Positions 7,418-32,558 of a stretch of DNA of 64,000 nucleotides are shown in pieces. The stretch's first letter is position 1. Each line of letters opens with the position of its first letter. The stretch spans positions 1 through 64,000 of the forward strand of contig JAHCAI010000006.1 of assembly GCA_019634975.1 (NCBI GenBank), read 5' to 3'. A model generated the notes under the pieces. It searched no databases and was not told the origin of the DNA. It worked only from the letters and a program-made list of their open reading frames with translations. The translations under genes were made by a program, and so were the position numbers. Source of the stretch: Burkholderiales bacterium. Its GTDB lineage: Bacteria > Pseudomonadota > Gammaproteobacteria > Burkholderiales > SG8-41.

Positions 7418-9151
7418 ATGACCGACACGCATTACGCCGCGCTGTGGCCGCGCGGCCCGCGCCAGGCGAAGGTGAAGCCGCTGGCGAAGCGCCTCGACAC
7501 GCTCGAAGGCAAGACCGTGGCCTGGCTGTGGGACTACGTGTTCCGCGGCGACGAGGTGTTCGAGCAGCTGGAGAACAGCCTGCGCGCGAAGTATCCCGGC
7601 GTGAAGTTTGTGCACTGGGAAGTTTTCGGCAACACCCACGGCAGCGACGAGCGCGCGGTGATCGCGGCGCTGCCGAAGAAGCTGCGCGAACTCGGGGCCG
7701 ACGCGGTCGTCTCCGGGATGGGGTGTTGAGGCAGCTGCACGCCCGCCGTGTTGCGGGCGAGTGTGGCGGCCGAAAATGCCGGCATTCCTTCGGCGACGCT
7801 GGTCTGTGAGAGTTTCATGACGCTGGCGAAGGCCGCGTCGCAGGGGCTGGGTTATCCGAACATCGCGGTGGCGCCGGTGCGCGGCCATCCGGGGCTGCAG
7901 AGCAAGGAAGAGCTGCAGCGCAATGTGCGCGAGCTGACGCTGGACGGCGTGCTCGACGCGCTGTTCAAGATGCCGGCGGCGAAGACGCTGGGCGGCGAGC
8001 CGGGTCCGCGCGAGGTGATCTGCAGCGGCAGCTTCGAGGACATCAACGACTATTTCATCGCGCATGAACTCTCCGACGGCCTGCCGGTGGTGCCGCCGAC
8101 GGTGGCGAAGGTCGAGGCTTTCCTGCGCTACACCGACCGCAAGGCCGAGGAGGTGCTGGGCGTGCTGCTGCCCGACAACCGCGCGGCGACGGTGTGGAGT
8201 GTCGCGGTCAACGGCGTGATGGCGGGCTGCCGGCCGGAGTACATGCCGGTGCTGGTGGCGCTGACGGAGGCGATGGCCGATCCGGCCTACGGCGTCGAGC
8301 ACAGCGGCAACACGCCGGGCGGTGAAACGCAGATCGTGATCAACGGCCCGATCATCAAGGAACTGGGTTTCAACTACACCCAGGGCGTGATGCGCGACGG
8401 CTTCCAGGCCAACACCACGGTGGGCCGCTTCTGGCGCCTGATGCTCCGCAATGTCGCCGGCTTCCTGCCGCACAAGAACGACAAGGCGACTTTCGGCAAC
8501 ACCTGGCGCGTTGTCATTGCGGAAAACGAGGACGTCGCCGCGAAAATCGGCTGGCCGCTGCACAGCGCGGAGTTCGGTTTCAAGCCCGGCGACAACGTGG
8601 TGTCGGTCGCGCGTTACACCGGCGGCAACCACATCTCCTCGGTGTCGGGCGCGACGCCGGAGGAACTGATGCCGTACATCGCCGACGCCGTCGCGCGCCA
8701 GTATTCCTGGCAGATCATGTTCAGCGTCGGCCAGGGTTATGACACGGTGCGCCCGTTGCTGCTGCTGTCGCCGATCATCGCCGAGACCATCGCTGCCGGC
8801 GGCTGGTCGAAGCAGCGTTTCAAGGAAGAACTGTTCAGGCAGGCGCGCATGACCGCGGCCGACTTCGAGCGCATGCTGCGCGACTGGACGCAGAAGCCGA
8901 CCTGGAACCTCGCCGAGGAGCATGCGGCGGGGCGCATCCCGAAAGTGTTCCACGAGTCCGACGATCCGCAGCGGCGGGTGCCGCTGGTGTGGCGGCCGGA
9001 GGATTTCCAGGTGGTTGTCACCGGCGATCTCGGCCGCAACAGCATTTATGTGCTGGCACATAACGGCGTGCTCGGTTTTCCGGTGGGCAAGCAAATCGGT
9101 TTGCCGAAGAACTGGGCTGTATTGCCGAAAGGACGCAAACCCCATGGATAA
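7418..9151 (+). CDS. UGSC-type selenoprotein fused to a large conserved domain; Sec at TGA 7727-7729
   Basis: A 577-residue product if the in-frame TGA at 7727-7729 is read as selenocysteine 104. The frame is open on both sides of that codon and TGA is followed by GGC AGC TGC, giving C-U-G-S-C-T-P-A. U104/C107 would form a UxxC redox pair. A SECIS-like hairpin follows. The continuation (AGIPSATLV, then IAVAPVRGHPG) resembles the Sec segment of glycine reductase GrdB as I recall it. Residues about 200-577 form a second domain with DGLPVVPPT, MAGCRPEYMPV and INGPI, homologous to the gene at 10877 and to the C-terminal part of 30802. Start ATG 7418 has GGAGG at 7407-7411. The substrate is unknown. 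The last 8 bases overlap the CinA-like gene. The alternatives, a pseudogene or two genes, fit less well. Confidence 0.85.
7730..7758 (+). promoter_or_regulatory. bacterial SECIS-like hairpin after Sec codon 1
   Basis: Beginning 11 nt after the TGA, GCCCGC (7741-7746) pairs perfectly with GCGGGC (7753-7758) around the loop CGTGTT. The loop G at 7748 is 19 nt past the TGA, within the spacing typical of bacterial SECIS elements, and the loop carries G-U as in known SelB-binding loops. It lies inside the coding frame. Confidence 0.78.
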
Positions 9152-9632
9152 ACTGCTGCCCCATGCCGAGCGCGCGATTGCCGCGCTGAAAGCGAAGAAC
9201 CAGACCATCGCCGTGGCCGAATCCTCGGCCGGCGGCCTGATCACCGCGGCGCTGCTCGCGGTGCCCGGCGCCTCGGCCTGTGTGCGCGGTGGCGTGGTGA
9301 TCTACACCTACGAGATGCGCCGCGCGATCCTCGGCATCAGTGACGCGGAAATGCAGGGCTTCACACCCTCGACCGAAACCTATGCGCTGCTGAAGGCGCG
9401 GCGGCTGCGCGAGCGCGTGAAAACCGACTGGACGCTCGCCGAGACCGGCGCCACCGGCCCGACGGGCAGCCGTTACGGCTATCCGCCGGGGCATGCCTGT
9501 TTCGCCGTGGCCGGCCCCGGCGGCGAGCGTGCGACCACGCTGGAAACCGGCGAGTCGGACCGATTGGACAACATGCAGGCCTTTGCGGCCGCTGCGCTCG
9601 ATTTCCTGACAGAGACGGTTGCGGGGGGCTGA
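9144..9632 (+). CDS. CinA C-terminal-domain protein (PncC-like amidase family)
   Basis: A 162-residue stand-alone CinA C-terminal domain. AVAESSAGGLITAALLAVPGAS holds the Ser-rich active-site loop of nicotinamide-nucleotide amidases (PncC), and ETGATGPTGSRYG the second conserved loop. PncC converts NMN to nicotinate mononucleotide. This protein is a divergent member, so the activity is tentative. The ATG at 9144 overlaps the last 8 bases of selenoprotein gene 1, indicating translational coupling and a possible role in the same pathway. Confidence 0.75.
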   Translation: MDKLLPHAERAIAALKAKNQTIAVAESSAGGLITAALLAVPGASACVRGGVVIYTYEMRRAILGISDAEMQGFTPSTETYALLKARRLRERVKTDWTLAETGATGPTGSRYGYPPGHACFAVAGPGGERATTLETGESDRLDNMQAFAAAALDFLTETVAGG

Positions 9633-9650
9633 GTCAGCCGTCCATCGCTG

Positions 9651-10703
9651 TCATTCCTTCCACAGGGCGTCGACTTCGATCTCCGGTGCGATCCTGAGCA
9701 GTGCTTCGCGTCCCTGCTTCGCGCGGCTGCGCCAGCCGCGACCGCGGCTGACCAGGTCGCGCCAGGCATTGTTGAACACCCGGGCCTGTCCGTTCTGCAG
9801 GAACCAGGCCGCGAGTGCCGCGGTCTGCAGCAGGTCCTTGTTTGCCTTTGCGCGCTGTGAGATCGGACGTTCGCCATAAACCACAAGCTTGTGTATGGCA
9901 TAACGCTCGGGCACCGGCAGATTCACCGTGCATGCCCCGGTGCGGCCGAAGACACAGGCCTGGGTCAGGTCCTCCAGTGCAAACTCCATGAACTTCAGCG
10001 GCTCAAGCGCGACTTTCAGCATGGGGATGCGCACCGGCTTTGTGCTGCGGCCGCGGGTAGTCAGGAAATCCACGCGCAATTCAGCATCTGCCGGATTGCG
10101 ATACTGGCTGCCGATCGAGCCATCGAGTTCGGTGATTGGCAGCAGGCCCATTTCGAGGGATTGCAGCGCGTCGTGTACGTCCACCTCAAGGTCCGCCTGC
10201 ATCGCGACAGATACGTTGTTGCCGGCATGGGCGAGATCGACGTCGAGCGTGCTGGAGGCGTCCCGCCAGCGCACGCCGAGCAGATTGCCGTAAGCGATGA
10301 AGGCATGGGTGCCGACCAGCAGTGCGCCCGCACGAAACAGGCCGTACTCGGCGAGCCGCTTGATGACGCGAAAATGTTTTGGCGCCATCGGCGTGCAGCC
10401 GAGGTTGATCGCGGCAAGTGCTTGCGGTGCCAGTGCCTTCGGATTGCGCTCGCGGCGGAAGCGTTCGACCAGAGCGCGTACCTGCGGGTTGTCGGGACCG
10501 ACGTAGATGACCCTCGTGCGTTCGGCGCCAGCTTCTCGCCAGGAGAAGTACCAATAATCCTTGCCTTTGCGCGATAGTTTCTGGAAGCTGCCGGACAGAC
10601 CGGCCAGCGCGTGTTCAATTTCGAAAACGCGTGTGCGTTCGGCCAGCTCGGCATACGCCGTTTGCGCGGGCAGGGGCAATTCGGTATGACGTGGATCAAC
10701 CAT
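9651..10703 (-). CDS. GSU2403-type nucleotidyltransferase-fold protein
   Basis: A 350-residue protein. The segment GALLVGTHAFIAYGNLLGVRW followed by TLDVDLA (about residues 130-160) has the pattern of a nucleotidyltransferase fold, with a G-hA-[YF] strand and a downstream D-x-D. It resembles the uncharacterised NTP_transf_8 / GSU2403 family and more distantly AbiEii-like proteins. The middle has RVDFLTTRGRS, a likely third acidic strand. Its biological role is not known. It is transcribed opposite to its neighbours, and a strong palindrome directly upstream (10718-10748) suggests regulation of its own promoter. Confidence 0.6.
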   Translation of the reverse strand: MVDPRHTELPLPAQTAYAELAERTRVFEIEHALAGLSGSFQKLSRKGKDYWYFSWREAGAERTRVIYVGPDNPQVRALVERFRRERNPKALAPQALAAINLGCTPMAPKHFRVIKRLAEYGLFRAGALLVGTHAFIAYGNLLGVRWRDASSTLDVDLAHAGNNVSVAMQADLEVDVHDALQSLEMGLLPITELDGSIGSQYRNPADAELRVDFLTTRGRSTKPVRIPMLKVALEPLKFMEFALEDLTQACVFGRTGACTVNLPVPERYAIHKLVVYGERPISQRAKANKDLLQTAALAAWFLQNGQARVFNNAWRDLVSRGRGWRSRAKQGREALLRIAPEIEVDALWKE

Positions 10704-10717
10704 CGGCGGCTCCCGGA

Positions 10718-10748
10718 TTGCTAGACATTATTCCAAAACGTCTAGCAA
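10718..10748. promoter_or_regulatory. perfect palindromic operator candidate
   Basis: TTGCTAGAC (10718-10726) and GTCTAGCAA (10740-10748) form a perfect 9-bp inverted repeat with a 13-bp AT-rich spacer. It is centred 30 bp upstream of the start of the nucleotidyltransferase-fold gene, where a repressor or the gene product could bind. There is no T-run, and its position before rather than after a gene argues against a terminator. Confidence 0.55.
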
Positions 10749-10857
10749 CTGACAAGCATGCAGCAATCATTTCGGCACCGGATGGTTGTGTTTAACTGTA
10801 TGTTTTCAAATAATTTTTACTTATTTCGTGGAAGAGGCTGGGCGCGGCCGGCTCGCG

Positions 10858-10877
10858 TGGCCGGTAAAATCCGGCCA
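10858..10877 (+). promoter_or_regulatory. hairpin abutting the start codon of the UGSC partner gene
   Basis: TGGCCGG (10858-10864) and CCGGCCA (10871-10877) pair perfectly around TAAAAT. The right arm includes the A of the ATG at 10877. No Shine-Dalgarno sequence is visible upstream, so this stem could mask translation initiation. Confidence 0.4.
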
Positions 10878-11920
10878 TGGACAGTCTCCCGAAGTTCTCC
10901 AGCGAGATTCACGAAGTCGCTGACGCGACTGAAGCCAACGAGCTCTACCAGCGCAACGGCTGGACCGACGGCCTGCCGATCGTGCCGCCGACCGAGGCGG
11001 CGGTAGCGCGCTTTCTGGATGCGGCAAAGCTTGCCCCGGATGCGGTGATCGGCATCGAGCCGGTGCGCCGTCGCAGCATCACGGCTGAAAAGGTGGCGAT
11101 TGCCGCGGTGATGGCGGGTTGCCTGCCGGAATACCTGCCGGTGGTGGTGGCGGTGGTGAAGGCGATGTGCCAGCCCGAGTACGCGCTGCACGGCAGCACC
11201 GCCAGCACTGGCGGCAGCGCGCCTTTCATCGTCGTCAACGGCCCCGTGCGCCGGGCGATCGGCATGAATGCGACCCACAATGTGCTGGCCAACGCCTCGC
11301 GTGCCAATGCCAGCATTGGCCGCAGCATCCGCCTGATCCTGCTCAATGTGCTGGGCGGCATTCCCGGCCAGCTCGACCGCTCGACGCTGGGCCATCCCGG
11401 CAAGTTCACTTTCTGCATCGCCGAAGACGAGGAGGATTCGCCTTGGCTGCCGCTGGCAGTTGAACGCGGCGTGCCGGCCGGCACCTCAGCGGTGACGGCT
11501 CTGCAGGTGGAGTCGCCGCTGCAGATCATGAACGAATGGACCCACGATCCGAAGGAAATCTGCGACACCTATGCCGCGGCGATGCGCAGCAACATGCTGC
11601 TGTACTCGATCTGGGAGGGCAATTACGCGGTCGTCATTCCGAAGCAGCACCGCGAGATTTTTGCCGCGGCGGGCTGGAGCAAGCAGAACATCCGCGACTA
11701 CGTTTATGAAAAGGCGCGAGTGAAGCGCGGCGAATGGCGCGGCGTCGGCAAGGCCGCGGTGGCCGGGCGCAAGGACGAGGACAAGGTCTATTGCGCACTG
11801 CGCTCACCCGACGACCTGCTGGTTATTGCCGCCGGCGGCCCGGCCGGCGGTTTTGCCGCGATCCTGCCGCCCTGGTACGGCAAGAAGTCGCTGGCGGTGA
11901 CGATGCCGGTCGGCGCGTGA
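10877..11920 (+). CDS. stand-alone homologue of the selenoprotein C-terminal domain
   Basis: A 347-residue protein of unknown function, homologous over its length to the C-terminal halves of the selenoproteins at 7418 and 30802. Shared signatures are DGLPIVPPT (31-39), VMAGCLPEYLPV (78-89, with Cys82), VVNGPVRRAIG and ASIGRSIRLILLNVLGG. No signal peptide or membrane segment is visible. Because the same domain is covalently fused to a UGSC Sec domain in two other genes here, and a separate UGSC gene follows 158 bp downstream, it most likely works with selenoprotein 2 as its partner subunit. The reaction is unknown. Confidence 0.8.
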   Translation: MDSLPKFSSEIHEVADATEANELYQRNGWTDGLPIVPPTEAAVARFLDAAKLAPDAVIGIEPVRRRSITAEKVAIAAVMAGCLPEYLPVVVAVVKAMCQPEYALHGSTASTGGSAPFIVVNGPVRRAIGMNATHNVLANASRANASIGRSIRLILLNVLGGIPGQLDRSTLGHPGKFTFCIAEDEEDSPWLPLAVERGVPAGTSAVTALQVESPLQIMNEWTHDPKEICDTYAAAMRSNMLLYSIWEGNYAVVIPKQHREIFAAAGWSKQNIRDYVYEKARVKRGEWRGVGKAAVAGRKDEDKVYCALRSPDDLLVIAAGGPAGGFAAILPPWYGKKSLAVTMPVGA

Positions 11921-11970
11921 TCCGTGCTCGGCGGGCCTCGCATAAGGAATGAAGGCCAACGGTTTTGCTT

Positions 11971-12035
11971 CGTCATTCCGGCGGACGCCGGAATCCAGAA
12001 CAGCCCCCTGGGTTCCTGCTTTCGCAGGAACGACG
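11971..12035. repeat. palindromic intergenic repeat (GTCATTCCGG type)
   Basis: Two adjacent hairpins lie here: TTCCGGC/GCCGGAA in the left half and TTCCTGC/GCAGGAA in the right. The outer ends CGTCATTCC (11971-11979) and GGAACGACG (12027-12035) are inverted with one mismatch. It is related to the element at 7243-7337 and separates the two genes of UGSC locus 2. Confidence 0.75.
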
Positions 12036-12078
12036 ATCATGGCTTGTGGTGTTATGCGGCAACTGACAGGAGGAAACC

Positions 12079-12609
12079 ATGACGCTGAGAGTCCTTGACC
12101 CCACGCAATCCGCCCACGGCGAGGCGCTGCGCCTTGCGCCGCCGCTGGCATCCCTGGAAGGCGCGGTGGTCGGCATGATCGACAACGCCAAGATCGGCAC
12201 CGGACGCCTGTTCGACTTCATCGAGGAGATCCTGAAGAAGGAGCACCGCGTGCGCGAATGCATCCGCCGGCGCAAGCCCGATGCCTCGCGCCCGGTGCCG
12301 GAGACCATGCTGATGGAGCTGCGCGGCGCGGATGCCATCCTCGCCGCCACCGGCGACTGAGGCAGCTGCTCGTCGTGCAGTCTGCACGACGCCATCGAAT
12401 CCGAACGGCTCGGCATTCCCGCGGTCGCGATCATGACCGACCGCTTCGTCGCCACCGCGAGAGCGGTGGCCGGCGTCAACGGCCTGAAGGATTATCCCTT
12501 CGCGGTGATCGCTCACCCGATCGCCAATAACGACGACGCAGCACTGCGGGAGAAGGCGCGCATCGCGGTCGATGCGATCGTGCCGATGCTGATGCAGCGC
12601 GCGGGCTGA
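12079..12609 (+). CDS. stand-alone UGSC-type selenoprotein; Sec at TGA 12358-12360
   Basis: A 176-residue product if TGA 12358-12360 encodes Sec94; the frame then stays open to TGA 12607-12609. The codons after it give U-G-S-C-S-S-C, so U94/C97 form a UxxC pair with an extra Cys at 100. The flanks follow the same plan as the other two UGSC proteins: an N-terminal half ending in a strand (ADAILAATGD), Sec, a helix, then RLGIPAVAIM and YPFAVIAHPIAN. AGGAGG lies 5 nt before the ATG. A perfect hairpin follows the Sec codon. Its probable partner is the gene at 10877. Read conventionally, the protein would stop at 93 residues just before its redox motif, which makes no functional sense. Confidence 0.85.
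12361..12390 (+). promoter_or_regulatory. bacterial SECIS-like hairpin after Sec codon 2
   Basis: GTCGTGCA (12372-12379) pairs perfectly with TGCACGAC (12383-12390) around loop GTC. Opening the top A-T pair gives AGTCT, close to the E. coli fdhF apical loop as I recall it. The loop G at 12380 is 20 nt past the TGA. Confidence 0.8.
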
Positions 12610-12637
12610 GCGGCGGTCTTTCGCACGCGCAGCGGGC

Positions 12638-12668
12638 AATAAAAAGGGCAGACCCTGCGGCCTGCCCT
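12638..12668 (-). terminator. rho-independent terminator of the Bug receptor gene
   Basis: On the minus strand AGGGCAG and CTGCCCT (12662-12668 and 12645-12651) form a 7-bp stem around a 10-nt loop, followed by a run of T with one A. It lies just after the stop of the gene at 12688-13671. Confidence 0.75.
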
Positions 12669-12687
12669 GACCAGCCGGGCATCCGGA

Positions 12688-13671
12688 TTATTCGGCCGTG
12701 ATGCCGGCTTCCTTGATCACCCTGGCGTACTTGGTCTTTTCCGACTTTATGAAGGCCGCAAATTCCTTCGGCGTGTTGCCGACGGGTATGGCGCCCTGCT
12801 TGGTCAGCGCAGCCTTCATGTCGGCCGAATGCGTGGCCCTGACCGTTTCGGCGGCCAGTTTGTCCAGCACCTTCGGCGGCAGGCCGGCCGGCGCGACCAA
12901 GCCGTACCAGGCGGCCGACTCGTAACCCGGCACGCCCGATTCCGCCACCGTGGGCACCTCGGGTGCGACATCGAGGCGCTTGGCGGTGCTCACCGCAAGC
13001 GCCCGTACCTTGCCGGACTTCGCGTGCGGCAGCACGGTCAGCGCGGTGGTCATGGTCATGTCGACATGACCGGCAACGACATCGAGCAGTCCCTGGTTGC
13101 CGCCCTTGTACGGGATGTGGTTCATCTTGATCTTGGCCATGTAAGCGAGTAGTTCGGTGGCGAGATGCTGCGAGGAGCCGATGCCGCCGGTGGCGTAATT
13201 GACCGGTTTCTGCCCTTTGGCCAGTGCAACCAGCTCGCGGATATTGGCTGCCTTCACCGAAGGATGCACGGCGATGATCTGCGGCAGTATCGCGGTCAGG
13301 CTGACCGCGGTGAAGGCCTTGTCGGCGTTGTAGGGCAGGTTCTTCCGCAGCAGCGGATTGATTGCATGGCCGATCGCGACGAACATCAGCGTGTGTCCGT
13401 CCGGTGCAGACTTTGCGGCGATGTCGGCGGCGACCACGCCGTTGGCGCCCGGCCGGTTGTCGGCGACGACCTGCTGGCCCCAGGCCTCGGTCAGCTTCTG
13501 GCCGATCATGCGCGCGAGGATGTCGGTGGATCCGCCGGGCGTGAAGGGCACGAGGATGCGGATCGGCTTGTCGGGATAGCTGTTGGCGGATGCGGGCAGC
13601 GTGACCGCGAAAGTGATTAGCGCCGCGGCGGCGATGGAGATATGTTTCAAGGGCTTGCTCCTGTTGTTCAT
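12688..13671 (-). CDS. Bug-family (TctC-like) periplasmic solute receptor
   Basis: A 327-residue Bug protein. A signal peptide of about 29 residues ends in ASA-N. It is followed by YPDKPIRILVPFTPGGSTDI and DNRPGANGVVAADIAAKS, the family's ligand-loop signatures, and by the conserved HIPYKGGNQGLLDVVAGHVDM segment. No TctAB genes adjoin it. It is followed 12 bases upstream by the stop of a TauD-like gene on the same strand, so the two may be cotranscribed and the receptor may supply that enzyme's substrate. A clear terminator follows it. Confidence 0.92.
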   Translation of the reverse strand: MNNRSKPLKHISIAAAALITFAVTLPASANSYPDKPIRILVPFTPGGSTDILARMIGQKLTEAWGQQVVADNRPGANGVVAADIAAKSAPDGHTLMFVAIGHAINPLLRKNLPYNADKAFTAVSLTAILPQIIAVHPSVKAANIRELVALAKGQKPVNYATGGIGSSQHLATELLAYMAKIKMNHIPYKGGNQGLLDVVAGHVDMTMTTALTVLPHAKSGKVRALAVSTAKRLDVAPEVPTVAESGVPGYESAAWYGLVAPAGLPPKVLDKLAAETVRATHSADMKAALTKQGAIPVGNTPKEFAAFIKSEKTKYARVIKEAGITAE

Positions 13672-13683
13672 TCGGTCGGGTAG

Positions 13684-14547
13684 TCAGGCGGCGGCAATGT
13701 AGCCCGAGGGCGTGCCGAGCACGGTCGTGCGCTCCATGTGGCGCAACTGTGTTTCATCGAAATCGCCCAGCGCCTGGTGCAGCGTGCAGCGGTTGTCCCA
13801 GACCAGCAGGTCGTTCTCGCGCCACTGTTGGCGGAACACGAACTCGGGCCGGGTGGCGTGCCGGTTCAGGTAGTCGATCAAGGGCTTGCTTTCCTCTTCG
13901 GTCATGCCGTCGAAACGCTTGACCTTTTCGCCGAGGTAGAGGGCCTTGCGGCCGGTTTCGGGATGCACGCGCACCACCGGCTGTGCGATCGGCGGATTGA
14001 GCTTCATGACCTCAGCGCGGCGCGCCTCGCCGGCATCGGCAACATTGATTTTGCGCGTGCCGGAGAGATGGATGCCGTGCAGATCGGCGATCAGCTTCTT
14101 CATGCCCTCGGACAGCGTGTCGTAGGCGAGGTACATGTTGGCGAACAGGGTGTCGCCGCCGACCTCGGGCAGGTTATAGCAGCGGAGCAGGGAACCGAGT
14201 GCGGGGCGCGTGGTGTATGACATGTCGGTGTGCCAGGAACGGCCGGTATAGCGCGACTCGGACGGGGTGCCGTCAGGATTCGGACGGTTGGTGACCAGCA
14301 GGATTTCCGGGTAGTCCGGATGGCGGTCACGCGGCAAGGATGCATGATCGTCGAGCTCGCCAAAACGGCGGCTGAATTCGATGTGTTGCTCGCGGCTGAT
14401 GTCCTGGTTGCGGAACAGCAGGATGCCGTATTGCAGGAAGGCGCTGTAAATTTCACCGAATGTGCTTTCGCTCATCGGCTTTCTCAAGTCGAGGTCACAG
14501 ACTTCGACACCCAGCGCATTCGAAAGGCGGCGCAGTTTAAGGGCCAT
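13684..14547 (-). CDS. TauD/TfdA-family Fe(II)/2-oxoglutarate dioxygenase
   Basis: A 287-residue enzyme. The facial triad is complete: His106 and Asp108 in SWHTDMSY and the distal His in RCTLHQALGDFD. The 2-oxoglutarate-contacting Arg is probably in the RHMERTTVLG segment near the C-terminus. TauD/TfdA enzymes hydroxylate sulfonates, phenoxyacetates and other carboxylates; the substrate is unknown. The start ATG at 14547 has GGAGG 8 nt upstream. The gene lies just upstream of the Bug receptor on the same strand, 12 bp apart. Confidence 0.9.
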   Translation of the reverse strand: MALKLRRLSNALGVEVCDLDLRKPMSESTFGEIYSAFLQYGILLFRNQDISREQHIEFSRRFGELDDHASLPRDRHPDYPEILLVTNRPNPDGTPSESRYTGRSWHTDMSYTTRPALGSLLRCYNLPEVGGDTLFANMYLAYDTLSEGMKKLIADLHGIHLSGTRKINVADAGEARRAEVMKLNPPIAQPVVRVHPETGRKALYLGEKVKRFDGMTEEESKPLIDYLNRHATRPEFVFRQQWRENDLLVWDNRCTLHQALGDFDETQLRHMERTTVLGTPSGYIAAA

Positions 14548-14658
14548 GGGATTTTCCTCCGGGACGGCTGTTGCGGACCGGAAGAGTATTCCACAAAGCG
14601 GCTTGATATCATCGGCGGATGCCACATCGTGTAAACCGCTGACTGCCGAGGACGTCCC

Positions 14659-15411
14659 GTGAATTCTTCCGAACCCCGATTGACCGGAAAAATCGCCCGC
14701 GAGCGTATCGTCATGATCGACATTCCCCGGCCGGACAAATCCGTCATCGAGGCTTTCCTCGCGCTGACCGACCTCGCAGGCACGGTGTCGGACGCGATGG
14801 ACGAGCTGGGCATCCACGGCGCGATTCCGGCGGCGAGGCTGCAGCCGATGCTGCCGGGCGCGCGCATGGTCGGGCCGGCGATCACGGTGCGCAACATCAT
14901 GCAGGCGACGCCGCCGACGCTGGGCGCGCAGGCACGCCAGTCGAAGCAGGCCGACATCGAGGCGCACAACCTGGCGAGGCCCGGCGACGTGCTGGTGATC
15001 GAGGGCGTCGAGCACATCTCCAGCCTCGGCGGCAATTCGGCGAACGTCGGCAAGCGTCAGGGCGAGGCCGGCGCCATCGTCGATGGCGCGACGCGCGACG
15101 TCGCCACCGCGCGCGGCATCGGTTATCCGGTCTGGGCGCGCGGCGTCAGCCTGATGACCGGCAAGTGGCGTGTCGAAACCGTGGCGATCAACGGTCCGGT
15201 GCAGATCTGCGGCGTGCCGGTGAATGCCGGCGACCTCGCGGTGGCCGACGACAACGGCGTGTGTTTCATCCCGCGCGCGCGCATTGCCGAAGTGCTGGCG
15301 CGGGCGCAGGCGCTGTCGGCGGGCGAGGAGGAACGCAACCGCGACGTCGCCGCCGGCATGAGCGTGGTCGAGGTCGCGAACAAGGCCTACTTCAGGAAGA
15401 TCGGCAGCTGA
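14659..15411 (+). CDS. RraA-like / HMG aldolase family protein
   Basis: A 250-residue protein of the RraA-like fold that includes 4-hydroxy-4-methyl-2-oxoglutarate aldolases. [20 protein letters not shown] followed by ATRDV contains the family's phosphate/metal loop and the R-D pair used by class II pyruvate aldolases. Its similarity to RraA, the RNase E inhibitor, is structural; a catabolic aldolase or decarboxylase fits this catabolic neighbourhood better. Translation probably begins at GTG 14659. It is followed 11 bp later by the degenerate TauD-like gene on the same strand. Confidence 0.82.
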
Positions 15412-15422
15412 AGCGGCGAGGC

Positions 15423-16271: not shown

Positions 16272-16339
16272 GCGTCAAAACCGTTTATCCTTCGGCTTCC
16301 CGCTCATTCTTACCATTCACCACGCACAAGGGAATTGCC

Positions 16340-17805: not shown

Positions 17806-17824
17806 GTGATATCCGGGCTGGTAT

Positions 17825-22093: not shown

Positions 22094-22145
22094 GCGATCT
22101 CCTCCGGTTGCGTTGAGGACAGATTATTGTTATATCCTTCAACTC

Positions 22146-22159: not shown

Positions 22160-22201
22160 TAAAATATTGCTTGATTCCAACAACAACCGGGGTTTCATAT
22201 T

Positions 22202-23287: not shown

Positions 23288-23288
23288 G

Positions 23289-24068: not shown

Positions 24069-24102
24069 GAAAATTATAGCCGGGTTGCGGATTTTTCAAA
24101 AG

Positions 24103-24116
24103 ATACGTATGATACG
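24103..24116. promoter_or_regulatory. candidate GntR operator, site B
   Basis: ATACGTATGATACG, identical to 22146-22159, lies between the divergent gntR-type and TauD-type genes, 50 bp before the TauD start. This is where autoregulation and coordinate control would act. Confidence 0.7.
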
Positions 24117-24165
24117 CATGTATTGTATTGGACAAGTTAACACCCTAGGCGATAGGAGACTCCTC

Positions 24166-25050: not shown

Positions 25051-25071
25051 TCCGGCAAGGTTGCTGAATGC

Positions 25072-25102
25072 AAAAAGCCCCGCGGTTAACCGCGGGTTTT
25101 TT
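25072..25102 (+). terminator. rho-independent terminator
   Basis: CCCGCGG (25079-25085) and CCGCGGG (25090-25096) pair around TTAA, with an A-run before and T-run 25097-25102 after. It ends the TauD-type gene and could also work for the opposite strand. Confidence 0.92.
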
Positions 25103-25138
25103 GTTCTTGGCAGGGTGGCGGGTGGATTGAGCCGGGCA

Positions 25139-25741
25139 TCAGCCTGGCGCCGATTTCTCCGCCAGCCACACCGTGTGTCCTCCGCAATCCGGATCCTCGA
25201 TCCGGTGCAGCAGCACCCGGAAACCCGCCGCGGCCAGCAGGCTTTCGTATTCCGTGCTGTCGAGGCTGGCGTGGTACAACTCATGGCCGTGGGTCTCGCC
25301 CATGGCCACGCCGGCCCGCGGTCCCGAGGTGAACAGCAGCAGCGCGCCGGGCGCTGCGTGGCGAGCGAATACCGGGAACATCGCGCGCTGGTCGCCGGGC
25401 TCGAGGTGGAAAAAGCTGTCCCAGGCGATGATCGCGTCGAAGATGCGGCCGAGGTCGAGGCCGCGCATGTCGGCCTCGATCCATTCGCCGTCCGGCCAGC
25501 GCTCGCGGCAGATCGCGATCATCGCGGCTGCGCAGTCGACACCGGTGACGCGGCAGCCGGCATCGATGAAGAATTTCGCGAGGGGCTCGCCGCCGCCGCA
25601 GCCGAGATCGAGGACCTCGCGCCGGCCGCCGAGCCGCGACAGCAGGGCTTCGAGGTACTGCCGTTCCATCAGGGAACGGCAGCGGTCGCGGTCGAACTGC
25701 CGCGCGACCGCTTCGTAGACGCCCCGGATGCTGCCGGGCAT
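25139..25741 (-). CDS. class I SAM-dependent methyltransferase
   Basis: A 200-residue methyltransferase of the UbiE/small-molecule type. The SAM-binding loop is EVLDLGCGGGEPLAKFFIDAG with acidic Asp in VTGVDCAAAMI, and motif II is AIIAWDSFFHL. Its substrate is unknown. Its ATG shares one base with the TGA of the upstream VOC gene (TGATG), so the two are translationally coupled and may act in one small pathway. Confidence 0.85.
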   Translation of the reverse strand: MPGSIRGVYEAVARQFDRDRCRSLMERQYLEALLSRLGGRREVLDLGCGGGEPLAKFFIDAGCRVTGVDCAAAMIAICRERWPDGEWIEADMRGLDLGRIFDAIIAWDSFFHLEPGDQRAMFPVFARHAAPGALLLFTSGPRAGVAMGETHGHELYHASLDSTEYESLLAAAGFRVLLHRIEDPDCGGHTVWLAEKSAPG

Positions 25742-26145
25742 CAGGCCTTGCCGGCCGGACGCTCGGGTTTCTTGTAGCGGCCGACCGGCACCAGCTCGGC
25801 AACGGTGCCGCCGGGGGCGCGGAACTTGACCGGTATCACGCCGGGGTCGCTGATGATTTCGCAGCCGTAGCCTTTGATCTTTTCCGTGGCGGCCGCCATG
25901 TCCTCCACCTCGATCGCGAAGTGGTGGATGCAGGGGCCTTCGCCGGCCGCCTTGGACTCGGCCGATTGCGTGCCCTCGTCGTACTTGATCAGCGTGAAAT
26001 CGATCTCGCCGTCGGTGAGGTGGCGCGACAGGTGGTCGCGGGTCTTGCGGGTCTCGGCTTCCCAGAAGCCGAAGACTTCCTCGTAGAACTTCGTGGTCTT
26101 CTCGAGATCCTCGACTTTCAGGGCGAGATGGACGATGCGGTTCAT
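25741..26145 (-). CDS. VOC-family (glyoxalase/extradiol dioxygenase-like) protein
   Basis: A 134-residue single VOC module pair: IVHLALKVEDLEKTTKFYEE at the N-terminus and IHHFAIEVEDM with GTVAELVPVG at the C-terminus. Metal-ligand candidates are His7, the His in IHHFA and the Glu in AELV, as in glyoxalase I. A lactoylglutathione-lyase-like or other isomerase role is possible but unproven. It is the first gene of a two-gene unit with the methyltransferase. Confidence 0.85.
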   Translation of the reverse strand: MNRIVHLALKVEDLEKTTKFYEEVFGFWEAETRKTRDHLSRHLTDGEIDFTLIKYDEGTQSAESKAAGEGPCIHHFAIEVEDMAAATEKIKGYGCEIISDPGVIPVKFRAPGGTVAELVPVGRYKKPERPAGKA

Positions 26146-26321
26146 GGCGTTCTCCTTGGGCTGCGCGCAGGGATTGCGGCGATGGCGGCGTTTTACGCTC
26201 CCGGCTGCCGCTTCCGCAAGCGGGGTGTTACACTGCGGGCGTCATAGTATCTGACCCCCGCCGTTTCCACCGCCCGGTCCGCATTTCCGCCTCCGGTCTG
26301 CGCCTGGCAGCGCAGCGCTCC

Positions 26322-27056
26322 TCAGGCCAGCGCGGAAATGGTCAGTCCCACCACCTTGTTGTCGGCGATGGCCTTGGCGACCAGCCCCGTTGCCTTGGCG
26401 TCCTCGATGAACTCGGCGAGGTATTTGGCAGCCTTGGGCCGCCCCTTGGGCACGCCCGCCGCCTGCAGCACGGCGGTGAAATTGCCCTCCACGATCACCG
26501 AGCCCGGGAACTTGGCCTGATCGGAGATCAGGCGCGGCTTCAGCCCGGCCAGCGCGTCGAATTTCTCGTCGACAAAACGCTTGAAGCAGAGATCGCCGCC
26601 CTTGTCCCTGACGAGCTCGGCGTTTTTGATGGTGCGCGAGAGGTACAGCTCATAGGCGGCCTTTTCCGGCACGATGATGCGCACGCCCTTGCGGTCGACT
26701 TCACCGGCATGCTTCAGCGGCGAGCCCGGCGGCACCAGGTAGGTCGACTCGATCTCGACATAGGCGGCGGTGAAATCGATCTCGTTGGCGCGCTGCGGTT
26801 CGGCGCCGAGGAAGCCGACGTCCCAGACATTGTTGCCGGCGGCACCCGCCAGCGCGCCCGGGTTGGGGTGCGGCACGAACTCCACCGGCAGGCCGAGACG
26901 GCGCGCCAGTTCCAGGCCAAGGTCATGGGCGACGCCCAGCGGCTTGCCGGTGGCGGGGTCGGTGCGGGTGAGCAGGAAATTGCTCATGTTGAGGCCCACG
27001 CGCAGCGTGCCGGTGGGTGCGAATTCTGAGCGGAGGGCGGGGGTGACTTCGGTCAT
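26322..27056 (-). CDS. family-3 solute-binding-like protein without signal peptide
   Basis: A 244-residue protein with the type II periplasmic-binding fold of amino-acid ABC receptors: TLRVGLNMSNFLLT, KPLGVAHDLGLELARRLG, WDVGFLGAEPQRANEIDFT and AYVEIESTYLVPPGS are all characteristic. No hydrophobic signal sequence precedes it. The in-frame extension up to 27164 is not hydrophobic either. It may therefore be cytosolic, like cyclohexadienyl-dehydratase-like or sensor variants. No ABC permease or ATPase is nearby. The 176 bp before it toward 26145 hold no gene I can support. Confidence 0.75.
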   Translation of the reverse strand: MTEVTPALRSEFAPTGTLRVGLNMSNFLLTRTDPATGKPLGVAHDLGLELARRLGLPVEFVPHPNPGALAGAAGNNVWDVGFLGAEPQRANEIDFTAAYVEIESTYLVPPGSPLKHAGEVDRKGVRIIVPEKAAYELYLSRTIKNAELVRDKGGDLCFKRFVDEKFDALAGLKPRLISDQAKFPGSVIVEGNFTAVLQAAGVPKGRPKAAKYLAEFIEDAKATGLVAKAIADNKVVGLTISALA

Positions 27057-27151
27057 GTGCTGGTCCTGTTGACTTGCGGGTTGCGGAACGCCCGATTTAA
27101 CACTGAACCGCGGCAGCTTGTCATCCGCGATTAGAATGGCGGCGCTGCAAT

Positions 27152-28339
27152 ATGGAATCCGCACATCCGGCGCGCTCCGCGCGCTATATCGCCCACCTCG
27201 ACATGGATGCGTTTTACGCGTCGGTCGAACTGCTGCGTTATCCGCAGCTGCGAGGGAAACCGGTGGTGGTCGGCGGCCGGCGGCGCGCCGCGCGCGGCGA
27301 GGCCGAGGATGGCGGCTTTGCCACGCTGCGCGGCTACAGCGGCCGCGGCGTGATCACCACCTCGACCTACGAGGCACGCGCGCTGGGCGTGTTTTCCGGC
27401 ATGGGCCTGATGAAGGCGGCGAAGCTTGCGCCGGACGCGGTGCTGCTGCCGGCGGATTTCGAGGCCTATCGCAGGTATTCGCGGCTGTTCAAGGACGCGG
27501 TGCGCGCGATCGTGCCGCAGGTGGAGGACCGCGGCATCGACGAGATCTACATTGATTTCAGCGAAGCCGTCGCCGCCAGCGCCGCCGAGGGCGCGCCCGA
27601 CCCCTGGGCGCGGGCGCGCGCCATCGCGCTGGACATCCAGCGCGCCGTGCGCGAAGCGACGGGACTGTCCTGCTCCATCGGCATCACGCCGAACAAGCTG
27701 CTGTCGAAAATCGCCTCCGAACTCAACAAGCCGGGAGGCGTCAGCGTGATCCGGCCCGACGAGGTGCGCAGCATCGTCTGGCCGATGGCGGTGCGCAAGA
27801 TCAACGGCATCGGACCCAAGGCCAACGCAAAACTCGAGCGGCTGGGCCTGCGCACCATCGGTGAACTGGCGCAGAAGGATGAGGCCTGGCTGGTGGAACA
27901 GTTCGGGCGCAGTTACGGCGCGTGGATGCACCGCGCCGCCCGCGGCGAGGACGAACGGCCGGTGGTGACCTGGAGCGAACCGAAGTCGGTCAGCCGCGAG
28001 ACCACTTTCGAGGACGACCTGCATCCGGTGCGCGACAAGGCGCGGCTGACGCAGATCTTCACCGGGCTGTGCGAGCGCGTCGCCGGCGACCTGAAGCGCA
28101 AGGGTTATGCCGGCAGAACCATCGGCCTGAAGATCCGCTTCGACAATTTCCACACTGTCACCCGCGACCTGACGCTCGACGCACCGGTGCAGGATGCGAG
28201 GGCGATCCGCCGCGCCGCCGGCGAATGCCTGAAGCGCGTGTCGCTCGACCGGCGCATCCGCCTGCTGGGGGTGCGTGTCGGCGCCCTGTCGCGGCCGGAT
28301 ATATCGTCCGAAGTCCACGCCATGGCGCTGTTCGACTGA
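27152..28339 (+). CDS. dinB: DNA polymerase IV (Y-family translesion polymerase)
   Basis: A 395-residue Y-family polymerase. The catalytic acids are Asp17/Asp19 in HLDMDAFYASVE and Asp130-Glu131 in RGIDEIYIDFS. The helix-hairpin-helix KINGIGPKANAKLERLGL and the little-finger domain (SVSRETTFEDDL) are present. An insertion of about 15 residues (44-62, Arg/Gly-rich) lies between VVVGG and the RGVITT strand compared with E. coli Pol IV. The C-terminus VHAMALFD lacks a strong QLxLF clamp-binding motif. I see no obvious LexA box upstream. It bypasses damaged bases with low fidelity. Confidence 0.93.
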   Translation: MESAHPARSARYIAHLDMDAFYASVELLRYPQLRGKPVVVGGRRRAARGEAEDGGFATLRGYSGRGVITTSTYEARALGVFSGMGLMKAAKLAPDAVLLPADFEAYRRYSRLFKDAVRAIVPQVEDRGIDEIYIDFSEAVAASAAEGAPDPWARARAIALDIQRAVREATGLSCSIGITPNKLLSKIASELNKPGGVSVIRPDEVRSIVWPMAVRKINGIGPKANAKLERLGLRTIGELAQKDEAWLVEQFGRSYGAWMHRAARGEDERPVVTWSEPKSVSRETTFEDDLHPVRDKARLTQIFTGLCERVAGDLKRKGYAGRTIGLKIRFDNFHTVTRDLTLDAPVQDARAIRRAAGECLKRVSLDRRIRLLGVRVGALSRPDISSEVHAMALFD

Positions 28340-28389
28340 GCAGGCGTGCGGCCGGTCATAATCCGCCGATCGATTGTCCGGGAGTGACC

Positions 28390-29733
28390 ATGAGCCTCAC
28401 CGCAGAACTCGCCGCCAGCATCCGCGGCACCACCTTCGATTCACTGTCCCCTGCCGATGTGCAGACCGCGAAACGGCTGATCGCCGACGGCATTGCCGTC
28501 GCGGTGGCCGGCAGCGGCGAGGCATTGCCCCGGCTGTTTGCCGGGCATGTGCGCGAACAGGGCGGCCGCGAGCAATGCCCCGTTTGGGGTTTCGGTTTCC
28601 GCACTTCGCCGGTCGCTGCGGCCTACGCGAACGCGGTGTCCATGCATGTGCTGGATTTCGAACCGATGTCGAGTCCGTCGACCCATGCCCTGTCGCCGAC
28701 GGTGCCTGTCGCCTTTGCGCTGGCCGTGCGTGACGGCCTCGACGGGCGCGCGCTGCTGACGGCCTGTGCCAAGGGCTTCGAGGTCCAGGGCCGGCTGCTG
28801 GCCTCGGTGGACCATCGCCGCGAAAGTTCGAAATTCCACGCGCCCGGGGTCGTCGGGCCCTTTGGCGCCGCAGTGGTCGCGGCGCACCTGCTGGATCTCG
28901 ACGAGTCCCGCCTCAATCATGCGCTGGCGATCGCGGCCTCGCGCAGCGGTGCGCTGCGCGCCAACATCGGCCATGGGGTCAAATGCACCCATTGCGGAAA
29001 TGCCGCTGCCGCCGGACTCGAGGCGGCGCTGCTGGCTGCGCGCGGCATGACCGGCAATGCCGACATACTCGCGCACGGCGAGGGTTTCGTCGCCGCCTTC
29101 TTTCCCAAGGGCATCGACCGCGACATGCTGCTCGGCTACGGCAAGCCCTTCCGCTTCCGCGACCCGGGCATGGCGATCAAGTTCTATCCGTCGAAGTATC
29201 CGACGCATTTCGCGATCAGCGCCGCACTGGAGGCGCGGCAGGGTATTGCTGATCCGCGCGATATCGCGGCCGTGAATCTGGTGACGCCGCCGATGCCGGA
29301 CGTCGACCGTCCGCAGCCGGTGTCAGGGCTGGAGGGCAAGTTCAGTTTTCAGTACGCCGCAGCCTGCGCGCTGCTCGATGGCCGGGTCGGCATCGCGTCC
29401 TTCCACGATGACCGCCGTTTCCGCGATGACATGGCTGCCTTGCTGCCGCGCATCCGGGTCAGCCCGGATGATGTCCTGCCGACCGCGTTCAACCGCATGC
29501 AGGTGTCGGTGGAGGTGACGATGCGCGACGGTTGCGTGCACCGCGCGACCTGTACCCGTCCGCCGGGTTTCTGGGGCGTGCCTTTCGATCTGGAACGTCA
29601 CCGCGCAAAGGTCGCCGACTGCCTGGCGACACGCCTCGATGCCGCGCGTGCGACCCGAGTCACCCAGTTGCTGGAGGTACTGGAGGATCTGCCGGCAGAG
29701 GGCCTGCGCGAGCTGAGCGGGCTGCTTGAATAA
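28390..29733 (+). CDS. MmgE/PrpD family protein
   Basis: A 447-residue protein of the 2-methylcitrate dehydratase / cis-aconitate decarboxylase family. Typical segments are HVLDFEPMSSPSTHALSPTV, the NIGHGVKCTHCGNAAAAGLE region and AIKFYPSKYPTHFAISAALE. The substrate cannot be predicted; Bordetella and Burkholderia carry many paralogues in catabolic islands. The start ATG at 28390 has GGGAG just upstream. It follows dinB by 50 bp but the two are functionally unrelated. Confidence 0.88.
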   Translation: MSLTAELAASIRGTTFDSLSPADVQTAKRLIADGIAVAVAGSGEALPRLFAGHVREQGGREQCPVWGFGFRTSPVAAAYANAVSMHVLDFEPMSSPSTHALSPTVPVAFALAVRDGLDGRALLTACAKGFEVQGRLLASVDHRRESSKFHAPGVVGPFGAAVVAAHLLDLDESRLNHALAIAASRSGALRANIGHGVKCTHCGNAAAAGLEAALLAARGMTGNADILAHGEGFVAAFFPKGIDRDMLLGYGKPFRFRDPGMAIKFYPSKYPTHFAISAALEARQGIADPRDIAAVNLVTPPMPDVDRPQPVSGLEGKFSFQYAAACALLDGRVGIASFHDDRRFRDDMAALLPRIRVSPDDVLPTAFNRMQVSVEVTMRDGCVHRATCTRPPGFWGVPFDLERHRAKVADCLATRLDAARATRVTQLLEVLEDLPAEGLRELSGLLE

Positions 29734-29873
29734 GGATAAGGCGCGCTCCGGCAGTCTGTTTGTTGAAAAAGGGATGCGCGAGCGCACCCGCGTGCAAGTC
29801 CCCGATTCGACGAGGACATCCATGCTCGCTAAGGCCCGCGACTGACATCGGTTCCGGGAATTTCAACTGACGG

Positions 29874-30695
29874 CTAGAGTCTGCCGCGGGCCGTGCCCGG
29901 CCTGGCGCGCGGCCGGGCCGCGACAGCCGGCTTTGATTCGCCGGTGCCAATAGCGTGGATCAGCGATTCGAGGTCGTTGCGCATGTCGGCCGGCATGGCC
30001 AGCTGGTGCAGGCGACGCAGTCGCGCGTTGCGGTCGGGCAGGTCGAGCATGCCGGTCAGGTAGAGCAGCAGATCGTTGGGGGTGTAGCGGTTCCCGGGAC
30101 TGCTGCGCCAGAAGTCGCGCGGCAGCTCCGGATACCCGCGGGAGCCCGGAAACAGCGCGCGCAGCACGAATCCGATGCAGCTCATGCAGTTGCCCTGCGG
30201 CGTGTCGTCGAGGCAGTAGGGAATGCCGGACTTGACCCAGGCATTGACCCGGGCCGGCAGCGTCTTGCGCAGCCGGGCCATGGCCGCGTTGTCCGGGAAG
30301 GGCCGCAGGCCGTAGAGATGCCAGACGTCGTAGCTGTTGTTGCCGACCTCGAGGGTTTCGCCGCTGATGAACGGCGAGATGACGACACCCAGCTCCGGGA
30401 AAGACCAGGCGATGCGCTGGTCTTCGAGTTCGATGCCGACCTGCACTTCCACGCTGTCATCCGGCATGCGCAGCAGGAAGTAGTGCACATAACCCGCCTG
30501 TCCGGGCGCGACGCCGACCACGCTGTGCAGCGGTGCCGTGCCGCGCGTGGCCGGCACTGGCTTGCTGACCGGAGTTGCCGGGCGCAGTGTTTCGGCAGGC
30601 GGCGGAATCCGCGCCGCCGTGTGGCCGGAGAGCAGCAGCACGGTGATCGTGCCCAGTATGCGGATGATGGCTTGCCTGCGCATGGTGAGGGGCAT
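29874..30695 (-). CDS. conserved secreted protein of unknown function
   Basis: A 273-residue protein that I do not recognise. A hydrophobic N-terminal segment (RILGTITVLLLSG, about residues 10-24) looks like a signal peptide, followed by a Pro-rich linker. The body contains YCLDDTPQGNCMSCIGFV with three Cys, and ends in a basic Arg/Pro tail. The start is uncertain; ATG 30695 and ATG 30683 both precede the signal. It is divergent from selenoprotein gene 3, and the two may share the 106-bp promoter region. Confidence 0.6.
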   Translation of the reverse strand: MPLTMRRQAIIRILGTITVLLLSGHTAARIPPPAETLRPATPVSKPVPATRGTAPLHSVVGVAPGQAGYVHYFLLRMPDDSVEVQVGIELEDQRIAWSFPELGVVISPFISGETLEVGNNSYDVWHLYGLRPFPDNAAMARLRKTLPARVNAWVKSGIPYCLDDTPQGNCMSCIGFVLRALFPGSRGYPELPRDFWRSSPGNRYTPNDLLLYLTGMLDLPDRNARLRRLHQLAMPADMRNDLESLIHAIGTGESKPAVAARPRARPGTARGRL

Positions 30696-30801
30696 TATTG
30701 CTGTAATCGGCACTACCTTGTGGATGTCAATTAGATGGATCGCTGTCATGCAGGCCGGTGACTGGTCCTTTAGAATCCCCTGACCAAGGAGGGTTCCATC
30801 A

Positions 30802-32529
30802 ATGGTCAAAATAGAATTCCACGATCCGTCGGGCACGCTCGAAGTGACCCAGGCCTTTGCGCCGCGAATCGACACACTGGCCGGCAAACGCATCGGCTTT
30901 GTCAGCAACGAGCAGTGGCAGGCCTTCCGCATGCTGCCGCTGTTGCGCGACCTGATCCGGGCCGATTTTCCGACGGCGGAGCTGCTGCCGATCGACGCCT
31001 ATCCACAGGGCAATGTGCTGATTCCGACCGAGGAGACCGCCGCGCTGGTGAAACAAAGCGGCGTCGACGCGGTCATCGTCGGCAACGCGGCCTGAGGCTC
31101 CTGCGCCACCGCTTGCGGCCGTGCTGCCGCGAGGATTGAAGCGCTGGGCATACCCACCGTCACGCTGACGCGGACGGACTTCGTCGGGGTCATGAAAAAC
31201 GCCGTCTCCGGGCTGGGCCTTGCGCCCGACGCGGCGATGGTGACTTTTCCGATCGACCTGTTCCTGCCGGGCAGCGACCTGTCCGCCGTCACTGCGCGGA
31301 GGAAGGAGTTCTACAACGGGTTGACGAAGTGGCAGTCTGATTTCAACCAGGGGACCGGCGGTGCGAAGATGCTCGCCGTCGAGGGCGCGACCCATGAAGA
31401 TGCGCTGCAGAAGGCCAACAACCTGCTGCTGACCAACCTCTGGGGCGACGGACTGCCGGTGTGGCCGGCAACGCGCGAGCGCGTCGACTGGATCCTGCGC
31501 GGCTCGGCGCTGCCGCGCGACCATGTGCTCGGCAAGTTTCCGCCGCGCGGCGGCATCACCACCGTCGAGCTGTGCGCGGTGGCGCTGGCGATGGCCGGCG
31601 GCCGGCCGGAGTACCTGCCGGTGCTGATCGCTGCCGTTGAAGCCTGTCTCGCGCCGGAATCGCTGTTCGACCAGCTGCAGGCGACTTCGGGCGGGCCGTT
31701 CCCGGTGGTGATCGTCAATGGTCCGATCGCGAAGGACATCCGCCTCAACTCCGGTTTCGGCTGTCTCGGCCCCGATCCGCAGCGGCCGGCCGGCGCCAGC
31801 ATCGGCCGCGCGCTGCGCCTGATGCAGCAGAACGTCGGCGGCGCGCTGCCCGGCATCGGCACCATGGCGATCTACGGCGCGATGCGCTACACCAATGCGG
31901 TGTTCGCCGAGGACGAGGCGAGCCTGCCCGAAGGCTGGCAACCCCACGGCACCCGCCGCCACGGCTTCGCGCCCGGCACCAACTCGGTATCGGTGTTTTT
32001 CGCCAGCGGCGTCACCAACATCCGCCGCCGCGGCGCGAAAAAGGAAACGCCGGAAGAGGATGTGACCCAGGGCCTGCACCGCATGGCCGATTTCATGCGC
32101 ACGCCGAATTTTGCCGCGCTCGCCGGCTGGGAGAAGGGCACGCCCGGTGCGATGCTGATCTCGCCGGTGGTCGCCGGGATGATGGCCAAGCTCGGCTGGA
32201 CGCCGGCGAAGCTGCAGGACTTCCTGTGGGAACACTCGAAGATTCCGATGGAGACCATCCGGCGTGCCGGCGGCCGCGCCTGGATCGAGATCGACCCGAA
32301 CCCGAAGGCGCGGGCGAGCATCGACCTCGACCCCTGGCCGATCGCGATGAAACCGGAGAACCTGGTCTTCCTGGTTGCCGGCGGCGACCATCCGACGCAC
32401 AGCCAGTGGCTGCAGGCGCACTCGCCGGCGGTGATTGGAAGGGTGATCCACACGCCGGAGTCCTTCGACCGGCTGCTCGCCGAATCGGACCGCGACCTCG
32501 GCTGTGGTTCCGAGGAATGCCGGATCTGA
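30802..32529 (+). CDS. UGSC-type selenoprotein fused to a large conserved domain; Sec at TGA 31093-31095
   Basis: A 575-residue product if TGA 31093-31095 is Sec98. The frame is open across it, and GGC TCC TGC gives U-G-S-C-A-T-A-C, a UxxC pair plus a further Cys. GVDAVIVGNAA-U-GSC and ARIEALGIPTV mirror the Sec segment of the glycine/betaine reductase B subunit as I recall it. Residues about 205-575 are the conserved second domain (DGLPVWPAT, NGPIAKD, ASIGRALRLMQQNVGG). The Cys of the AGC-PEY motif is Gly here (AGGRPEYLPV). The C-terminus adds Cys568 and Cys573 (GCGSEEC), a possible resolving pair. AAGGAGGG is 8 nt before the ATG. The rhodanese gene follows 29 bp later. Confidence 0.85.
31096..31133 (+). 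promoter_or_regulatory. bacterial SECIS-like hairpin after Sec codon 3
   Basis: CTTGCGGC (31112-31119) pairs with GCCGCGAG (31126-31133), seven canonical pairs and one G-U, around loop CGTGCT. The loop is nearly the same as that of SECIS 1 (CGTGTT). The loop G at 31121 is 26 nt past the TGA. Confidence 0.78.
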
Positions 32530-32558
32530 AACAACGAAAACGAACGGGGAATCGCTTG

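Follow-up and report, generated by a model that had tools for sequence, protein, structure and literature searches.

In a 64,000-nucleotide stretch of DNA from a Burkholderiales bacterium (positions 1 to 64,000 of contig JAHCAI010000006.1, assembly GCA_019634975.1; the whole stretch is referred to as the window and the assembly as the source genome), three loci encode predicted selenoproteins of the UGSC family, either fused to or located beside a second domain that we refer to as the partner. We propose that UGSC and its partner together form an enzyme resembling the glycine and proline reductases (Grd and Prd), dependent on selenocysteine (Sec), reductive, cleaving a carbon-heteroatom (C-X) bond of a small organic acid, and equipped with a new substrate subunit; from comparison of sequences we give this proposal a probability of about one half. 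Because nearly all UGSC relatives sampled have the partner fused or encoded nearby, and because the Sec-bearing domain is distantly related to the glycine and proline reductases, the pair would likely cleave a carbon-heteroatom bond in small compounds that the cell imports.

UGSC and partner domains in the window and the source genome

The units within the window, with TGA translated as Sec (U) in the selenoprotein genes, are as follows.

7418..9151, + strand: gene for a UGSC-partner fusion selenoprotein of 577 aa, with Sec at U104 and UGA at 7727-7729
~7418-7999 and ~8009-9148, + strand: UGSC and partner domains, respectively, of the 7418 fusion
10877..11920, + strand: free partner-domain protein, an ordinary open reading frame (ORF) of 347 aa with DGLPxxPPT, AGxxPEYxPV and NGPI motifs
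12079..12609, + strand: free UGSC selenoprotein gene (P0003), 176 aa, Sec at U94, UGA at 12358-12360
30802..32529, + strand: gene for a UGSC-partner fusion selenoprotein of 575 aa, with Sec at U98 and UGA at 31093-31095

The stop of the 12079 copy is assumed to be the next in-frame TGA after the Sec codon, and the final TGA of the 30802 copy is likewise assumed to be its stop. A preliminary description of this DNA had placed three UGA-containing UGSC domains and a separate partner at these loci, and this is confirmed by the translations and by scores against PF24696 of 102.3 (7418), 165.9 (12079) and 75.2 bits (30802), all above the Pfam gathering cut-off of 25. With NF041046 the 12079 copy scores 127.3 bits versus a cut-off of 125, and the fused copies fall below it (51.2 bits for 7418, 44.2 for 30802). 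The partner domains of the two fusions score 499 (7418) and 498 bits (30802) using a profile of the six copies in the source genome, to which both of them belong. The three partner motifs, which had been described in both fused and free forms, are indeed found in both, intact in the free 10877 protein and with single substitutions in the two fusions.

The source genome contains six UGSC and six partner domains altogether, arranged as three fused and three split units, and three of the units sit outside the window. Each of the six UGSC domains adjoins or is fused to a same-strand partner, an association beyond chance, and five of them have an in-frame TGA; in a paralogue on contig C19, outside the window, Gly replaces Sec and the Cys is lost too.

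UGA is predicted to encode selenocysteine

The source genome encodes both SelB (429 bits versus a cut-off of 242) and tRNA-Sec (75.9 bits versus a cut-off of 47, with which ARAGORN concurs). Across 28 genomes, 102 of 107 UGSC matches contain one in-frame TGA, its position having been verified in those copies that were read; the five TGA-free matches are three fragments that fall short of the motif, one DCGSC form, and one in which the motif is lost. Clean CGSC forms account for five of ten proteins read from the protein database, with Cys exactly at the place of Sec, and U94, G95 and C97 are invariant in 56 of 56 aligned UGSC sequences. The UGSC alignment (A4) holds 56 of 89 matches and the corresponding partner alignment (A3) 61 of 91, both thinned for redundancy and excluding source-genome rows from contigs C1, C14 and C19.

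Each UGA in the window is followed by a potential hairpin of the selenocysteine insertion sequence (SECIS) type.

7727..7774, + strand: UGA and downstream SECIS-like hairpin, -28.0 kcal/mol, z -2.73, out of register with the family stem
12371..12391, + strand: SECIS-type hairpin of 9 bp beginning 13 nt after the first base of the UGA, z -1.19 as a single sequence
31093..31140, + strand: UGA and downstream SECIS-like hairpin, -18.3 kcal/mol, z -0.71, weak alone and out of register with the family stem

The family stem lies 15-33 nt from the UGA and has 90.2% of cells paired over 82 distinct sequences, the 12079 copy included, and a covariation of 0.174 versus 0.096 when shuffled (0 of 500 shuffles reach it). 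The percentage paired, the double-change cells and the covariation all beat every one of the 500 shuffles and every slid version, whereas two other measures do not; these statistics are drawn from related sequences in a coding region, and the two fused copies of the window fold into different hairpins. No SECIS element was matched in Rfam. From these features of the sequence, the in-frame UGA of the window UGSC domains is predicted to be read as Sec.

The two halves occur together and are inherited together

Among at least 574 partner loci, 79 of the 80 best contain UGSC; at the 80th (L060) a UGSC gene begins but is truncated where the contig stops. At one locus (L033) the UGSC sits in a neighbouring fusion, with the contig ending just beyond the free partner, and at three others (L067, L070 and L106) the two halves are 1 to 1.5 kb apart. 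Gene order is variable, with UGSC first or partner first and the two fused or, at most of the 80 loci, split, and the loci come from many bacterial phyla. In the 28 genomes a same-strand partner lies within 1.5 kb of 99 of 107 UGSC matches, and UGSC is near 105 of 128 partner matches, contig ends explaining part of those that are unpaired. Twenty-six of these 28 genomes were found via partner loci, such that their presence counts are biased; the free sample consists of 150 Pseudomonadota genomes, three of which contain UGSC and the same three the partner, the source genome among them. True surplus partners occur in the genome of locus L083 (G164), which has 17 partner versus seven UGSC matches (surplus on contigs C56, C73, C98, C121 and C150) and also carries, on contig C30, a UGSC paralogue whose motif is lost.

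The sequences of the halves have also diverged in parallel. In G163, a 5.9 Mb metagenome-assembled genome (MAG; Betaproteobacteria RIFCSPLOWO2_12_FULL_62_13, the genome of locus L078), partner and UGSC distances correlate with r of 0.92 over 21 paralogous pairs in 18 regions, a value reached in none of 2000 permutations (maximum 0.32), and because all of the pairs are from one MAG, shared speciation does not account for this co-divergence. For the six pairs of the source genome r is 0.80 (10 of 2000 permutations). Co-divergence shows joint inheritance of the halves, not contact between them, and fusion and adjacency alone would favour it too. Fusion or adjacency, co-occurrence and co-divergence together bear out the earlier proposal that the two domains work as a unit, and it is highly probable, judging from these genomic patterns, that the partner is near-obligatory for UGSC and that the pair forms one unit. 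We infer that the UGSC family grew by joint duplication of both halves.

UGSC is related to the Sec-bearing part of GrdB and PrdB

The GrdB model TIGR01917 matches P0003 with an E-value of 3.7e-4 and 19.5 bits, far below its cut-off of 602.2, and we therefore turn to profile-profile comparison. Using hhalign, the 56 UGSC sequences align to the GrdB family (four sequences) with a probability of 96.0% (E 4.2e-9, 86 columns, 29% identity), with the two Sec residues superposed, GIP opposite GLP and the HP loops matched to each other, and they align to 11 PrdB-like proteins with 89.7% (E 1.8e-6); in the reverse direction, one PrdB-like protein matches NF041046 at 5.2e-5. Control comparisons of the partner gave 0.2% with UGSC and 0.1% with GrdB, 60 column shuffles per target gave at most 0.8% (GrdB) and 2.3% (PrdB-like), and reversed profiles 0.2-0.3%. 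The GrdB alignment (A7) holds four of five full-length GrdB matches, the fifth being without a locus; all three members tested pass the TIGR01918 cut-off and the fourth scores 433.9 bits with PF07355. The PrdB-like alignment (A8) holds 11 of 16 short matches with a locus, omitting L120 (Cys for Sec), L123, L124, L125 and L131, and the three PrdB-like proteins tested score 97-142 bits with TIGR04483, below its cut-off of 300. Both sets are drawn from genomes that also carry UGSC.

The preliminary description had likened the Sec segment to GrdB, and the profile-profile comparison upholds the likeness, but kinship is limited to about the last fifth of GrdB (template positions 341-429 of 437). No N-terminal GrdB domain is present in the UGSC alignment, and the partner profile does not match GrdB. 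PF07355 (GrdB) has no match in the source genome, while positive genomes exist among the others searched. By profile comparison, UGSC is very probably homologous to the Sec-bearing C-terminal part of GrdB and PrdB.

In an AlphaFold2 model of the 7418-9151 fusion (predicted local distance difference test, pLDDT, 88.1; predicted template modelling score, pTM, 0.90), strands and helices of the UGSC part, five of each, alternate strictly starting at residue 33, and Sec follows the third strand. Most structural neighbours of this part are Rossmann-like. The thioredoxin fold has a mixed sheet and a C-terminal beta hairpin; no hairpin is seen among the elements that the model predicts for UGSC. Sequence searches of the PDB returned no solved relative of GrdB or PrdB.

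Ten of the short PrdB-like proteins (L117, L118, L119, L121, L122, L126-L128, L130 and L132) are selenoproteins with an in-frame TGA, and PF09338 has no match in five genomes with PrdB-like matches (G150, G153, G157, G160 and G169). These proteins are a separate orphan selenoprotein group.

The partner domain

No Pfam or NCBIfam family was matched by the free partner (10877-11920). At least 7422 of 7999 candidates scored are homologous to it at E<=0.001, versus only 19 of 694 with the UGSC half as query; this may reflect an annotation gap, and the shorter and less conserved UGSC query accounts for part of the difference. The AlphaFold2 model of the free partner is highly confident (pLDDT 94.4, pTM 0.93) and has no clear relative in the PDB, its weak structural neighbours being class I fumarases and cyclic amide hydrolases. 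We do not call it a new fold, because the structure search says little about most of the partner. Among the 61 aligned rows D31, R149, E183 and W190 are invariant, W29, H105, R142, N157 and D167 are nearly so, and there is no invariant Cys, Ser or Thr. In some other partners (L041, L044, L066, L069, L108 and several more) a CxDC motif, absent from the window copy, is located at or near the C-terminus, and is a possible extra redox pair.

Genomic context and paralogue expansion

The split pair adjoins a transporter gene, and this in turn a dioxygenase gene.

12688..13671, - strand: TctC receptor of a tripartite tricarboxylate transporter (PF03401, E 8.6e-61)
13684..15015, - strand: TauD/TfdA-family dioxygenase ORF (PF02668, E 5.2e-69)

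The surroundings of the source-genome units include genes for TctC, TauD-type dioxygenases, an RraA-like aldolase, aldehyde dehydrogenase, MmgE/PrpD, HMGL and CoA-transferase. TctC lies within 3 kb of three of six partner domains in this genome, versus 124 of 520 control segments. In G163 the corresponding figures are 19 of 25 versus 65 of 195, and 12 of the 25 have a same-strand TctC no more than 700 bp away; this count covers 18 regions and 25 partner domains of 45 matches, and no p-value is given because the control segments overlap. Such proximity in the betaproteobacterial pairs is as expected if each pair has its own substrate. Across the 80 loci a close same-strand TctC accompanies only two of 85 partner blocks, and a varied set of genes lies nearest to the units elsewhere (transporters, LysR, CoA transferases, acyl-CoA dehydrogenases, amidohydrolases and also Hydantoinase_B; 119 of the 142 nearest genes were scanned and, one gene further out, 115 of 232). 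Such a mixed neighbourhood is consistent with catabolic roles on varied substrates and argues against a constant third component.

G163 has the largest UGSC family among the genomes considered here, with 45 partner matches and 40 UGSC matches, 38 of the latter having an in-frame TGA and some of these 38 being fragments, counts to which co-assembly of strains may contribute. The largest bacterial selenoprotein gene totals on record are 57 and 63, as given in the accessible part of a review (PMC13188914).

With two heme-copper oxidases above cut-off encoded in its genome, the source bacterium can likely respire oxygen. The preliminary description had referred to an enzyme of anaerobes; the setting here is not an obvious Stickland anaerobe, and PF09338 has no match in the source genome. 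The Sec subunits of Grd and Prd act together with GrdE and PrdA, which belong to the pyruvoyl proprotein family PF09338. Matches to this family are found in three of 11 genomes searched, the three with full-length GrdB, and lie beside GrdB.

Three further features of the window were noted. An ORF with four rhodanese stretches (32226-34148, + strand) overlaps the 3' end of the third unit (30802-32529), and because of this overlap its true start is probably just past 32529; it has a possible role in sulfur or selenium transfer. A Y-family DNA polymerase (27152-28339, + strand) has an equally long antisense ORF (27131-28318, - strand). A SIR2-like domain protein (PF13289; 5395-6405, + strand), perhaps a defence gene, is located amid metabolic genes.

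Proposed function and alternatives

In the reaction that we envisage, the partner domain would bind and polarise the substrate via D31, H105, R142, R149, E183 and W190, standing in for GrdE or PrdA without a pyruvoyl group. The UGSC selenolate would attack carbon, displacing N, S, O or halogen as the leaving group; the invariant Cys of UxxC, three positions after Sec, would resolve the selenium adduct to give a Se-S bond, and a cellular dithiol system such as thioredoxin would reset that bond.

Among the alternatives, a non-reductive lyase, hydrolase or hydratase, with the chemistry residing in the partner and the selenolate acting as nucleophile or metal ligand, is unlikely but fares best; the resemblance of the partner model to class I fumarases and cyclic amide hydrolases, weak as it is, points in this direction, as do the amidohydrolases, CoA transferases and Hydantoinase_B among the neighbours. 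Somewhat more doubtful is the literature view in which UGSC adopts a thioredoxin-like fold and serves in general redox reactions of thiols or peroxides, with the partner as its reductant or target. UxxC is common as a redox motif, but the strict strand-helix alternation of the five-stranded predicted model with Sec after the third strand, and the fact that the relatives by sequence are GrdB and PrdB, argue against it, and so many paralogues, along with TctC genes nearby, suit catabolism better. The GrdB homology of the Sec domain could also be accommodated by a complete, divergent B component of glycine, betaine or sarcosine reductase, passing a carboxymethyl-selenoether to GrdA and yielding acyl phosphate via GrdC/D; this is quite improbable, as PF07355 and PF09338 are both unmatched in the source genome and both matched in three others, and the partner profile does not match GrdB. 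A reading of the units as broken genes, with each in-frame TGA a normal stop codon or an error, can be virtually dismissed: two of the three window hairpins are unremarkable as single sequences, but a single TGA recurs in nearly all matches, Cys replaces Sec exactly in the CGSC forms, SelB and tRNA-Sec are present, and a covarying stem lies behind the UGA.

A bolder form of the reductive C-X cleavage proposal, which we put forward tentatively and hold to be somewhat less than an even prospect, is that the pair represents a third selenoprotein-B branch beside Grd and Prd. This would be a two-subunit, pyruvoyl-free, Sec-dependent C-X reductase of respiring bacteria, with radiation into dozens of paralogues in a genome, each served by a dedicated substrate subunit and in many cases by a dedicated TctC uptake receptor; gene finders would drop the Sec half at the UGA and leave an orphan hypothetical protein.

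With a fixed partner and GrdB/PrdB ancestry, an orphan becomes a testable two-subunit enzyme, for which it is clear what to co-express and which class of reaction is predicted. If the proposal is true, Stickland-type Sec-dependent bond cleavage would reach respiring soil and water bacteria, and a single genome may encode about 40 such enzymes.

Comparison with known systems

The Sec domain described here is a member of the UGSC family (PF24696/NF041046). We do not regard this as a new family, nor either half by itself as new, because both the name and one fusion have already been published; the preliminary description is corrected in this respect. The family and one "UGSC/Unknown_1" fusion were reported in 2008 (PMC2398784, Fig. 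S1A); the accessible part of that account describes a likely thioredoxin-like fold, gives no function, and has Unknown_1 as limited in occurrence. Our partner is likely the published Unknown_1 domain. In contrast to that account, as far as its accessible part goes, we find the partner to be near-obligatory, distributed over many phyla and mostly split from UGSC, and the relatives of UGSC to be GrdB and PrdB. The open-access literature searched yielded no mention of a partner that is near-obligatory, of descent shared with GrdB/PrdB, of a replaced pyruvoyl subunit, or of large paralogue expansions.

With GrdB/GrdF/GrdH (PF07355, TIGR01918), UGSC shares Sec in a U-G-x-x context, GIP after the helix, the HP loop, and 86 homologous columns, but it lacks the GrdB N-terminal domain, is below PF07355 detection, and has a new partner domain that is not GrdE. 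D-proline reductase (PrdB/PrdA) is similar to the UGSC pair in combining a small Sec subunit with a larger partner, consistent with the 89.7% profile match; it differs in that PrdA belongs to the pyruvoyl family PF09338, whereas no Cys, Ser or Thr is invariant in the UGSC partner. FarB/FarE, which acts on monofluoroacetate, has a pyruvoyl-free B component for which C-F cleavage is proposed, according to the accessible part of the report (PMC10838667). As described there, it resembles the UGSC pair in having a GrdB-like Sec subunit and a partner without pyruvoyl-forming cysteines, and differs from it in that FarE is a GrdE homologue, FarB is a GrdB homologue, and the host is an anaerobe.

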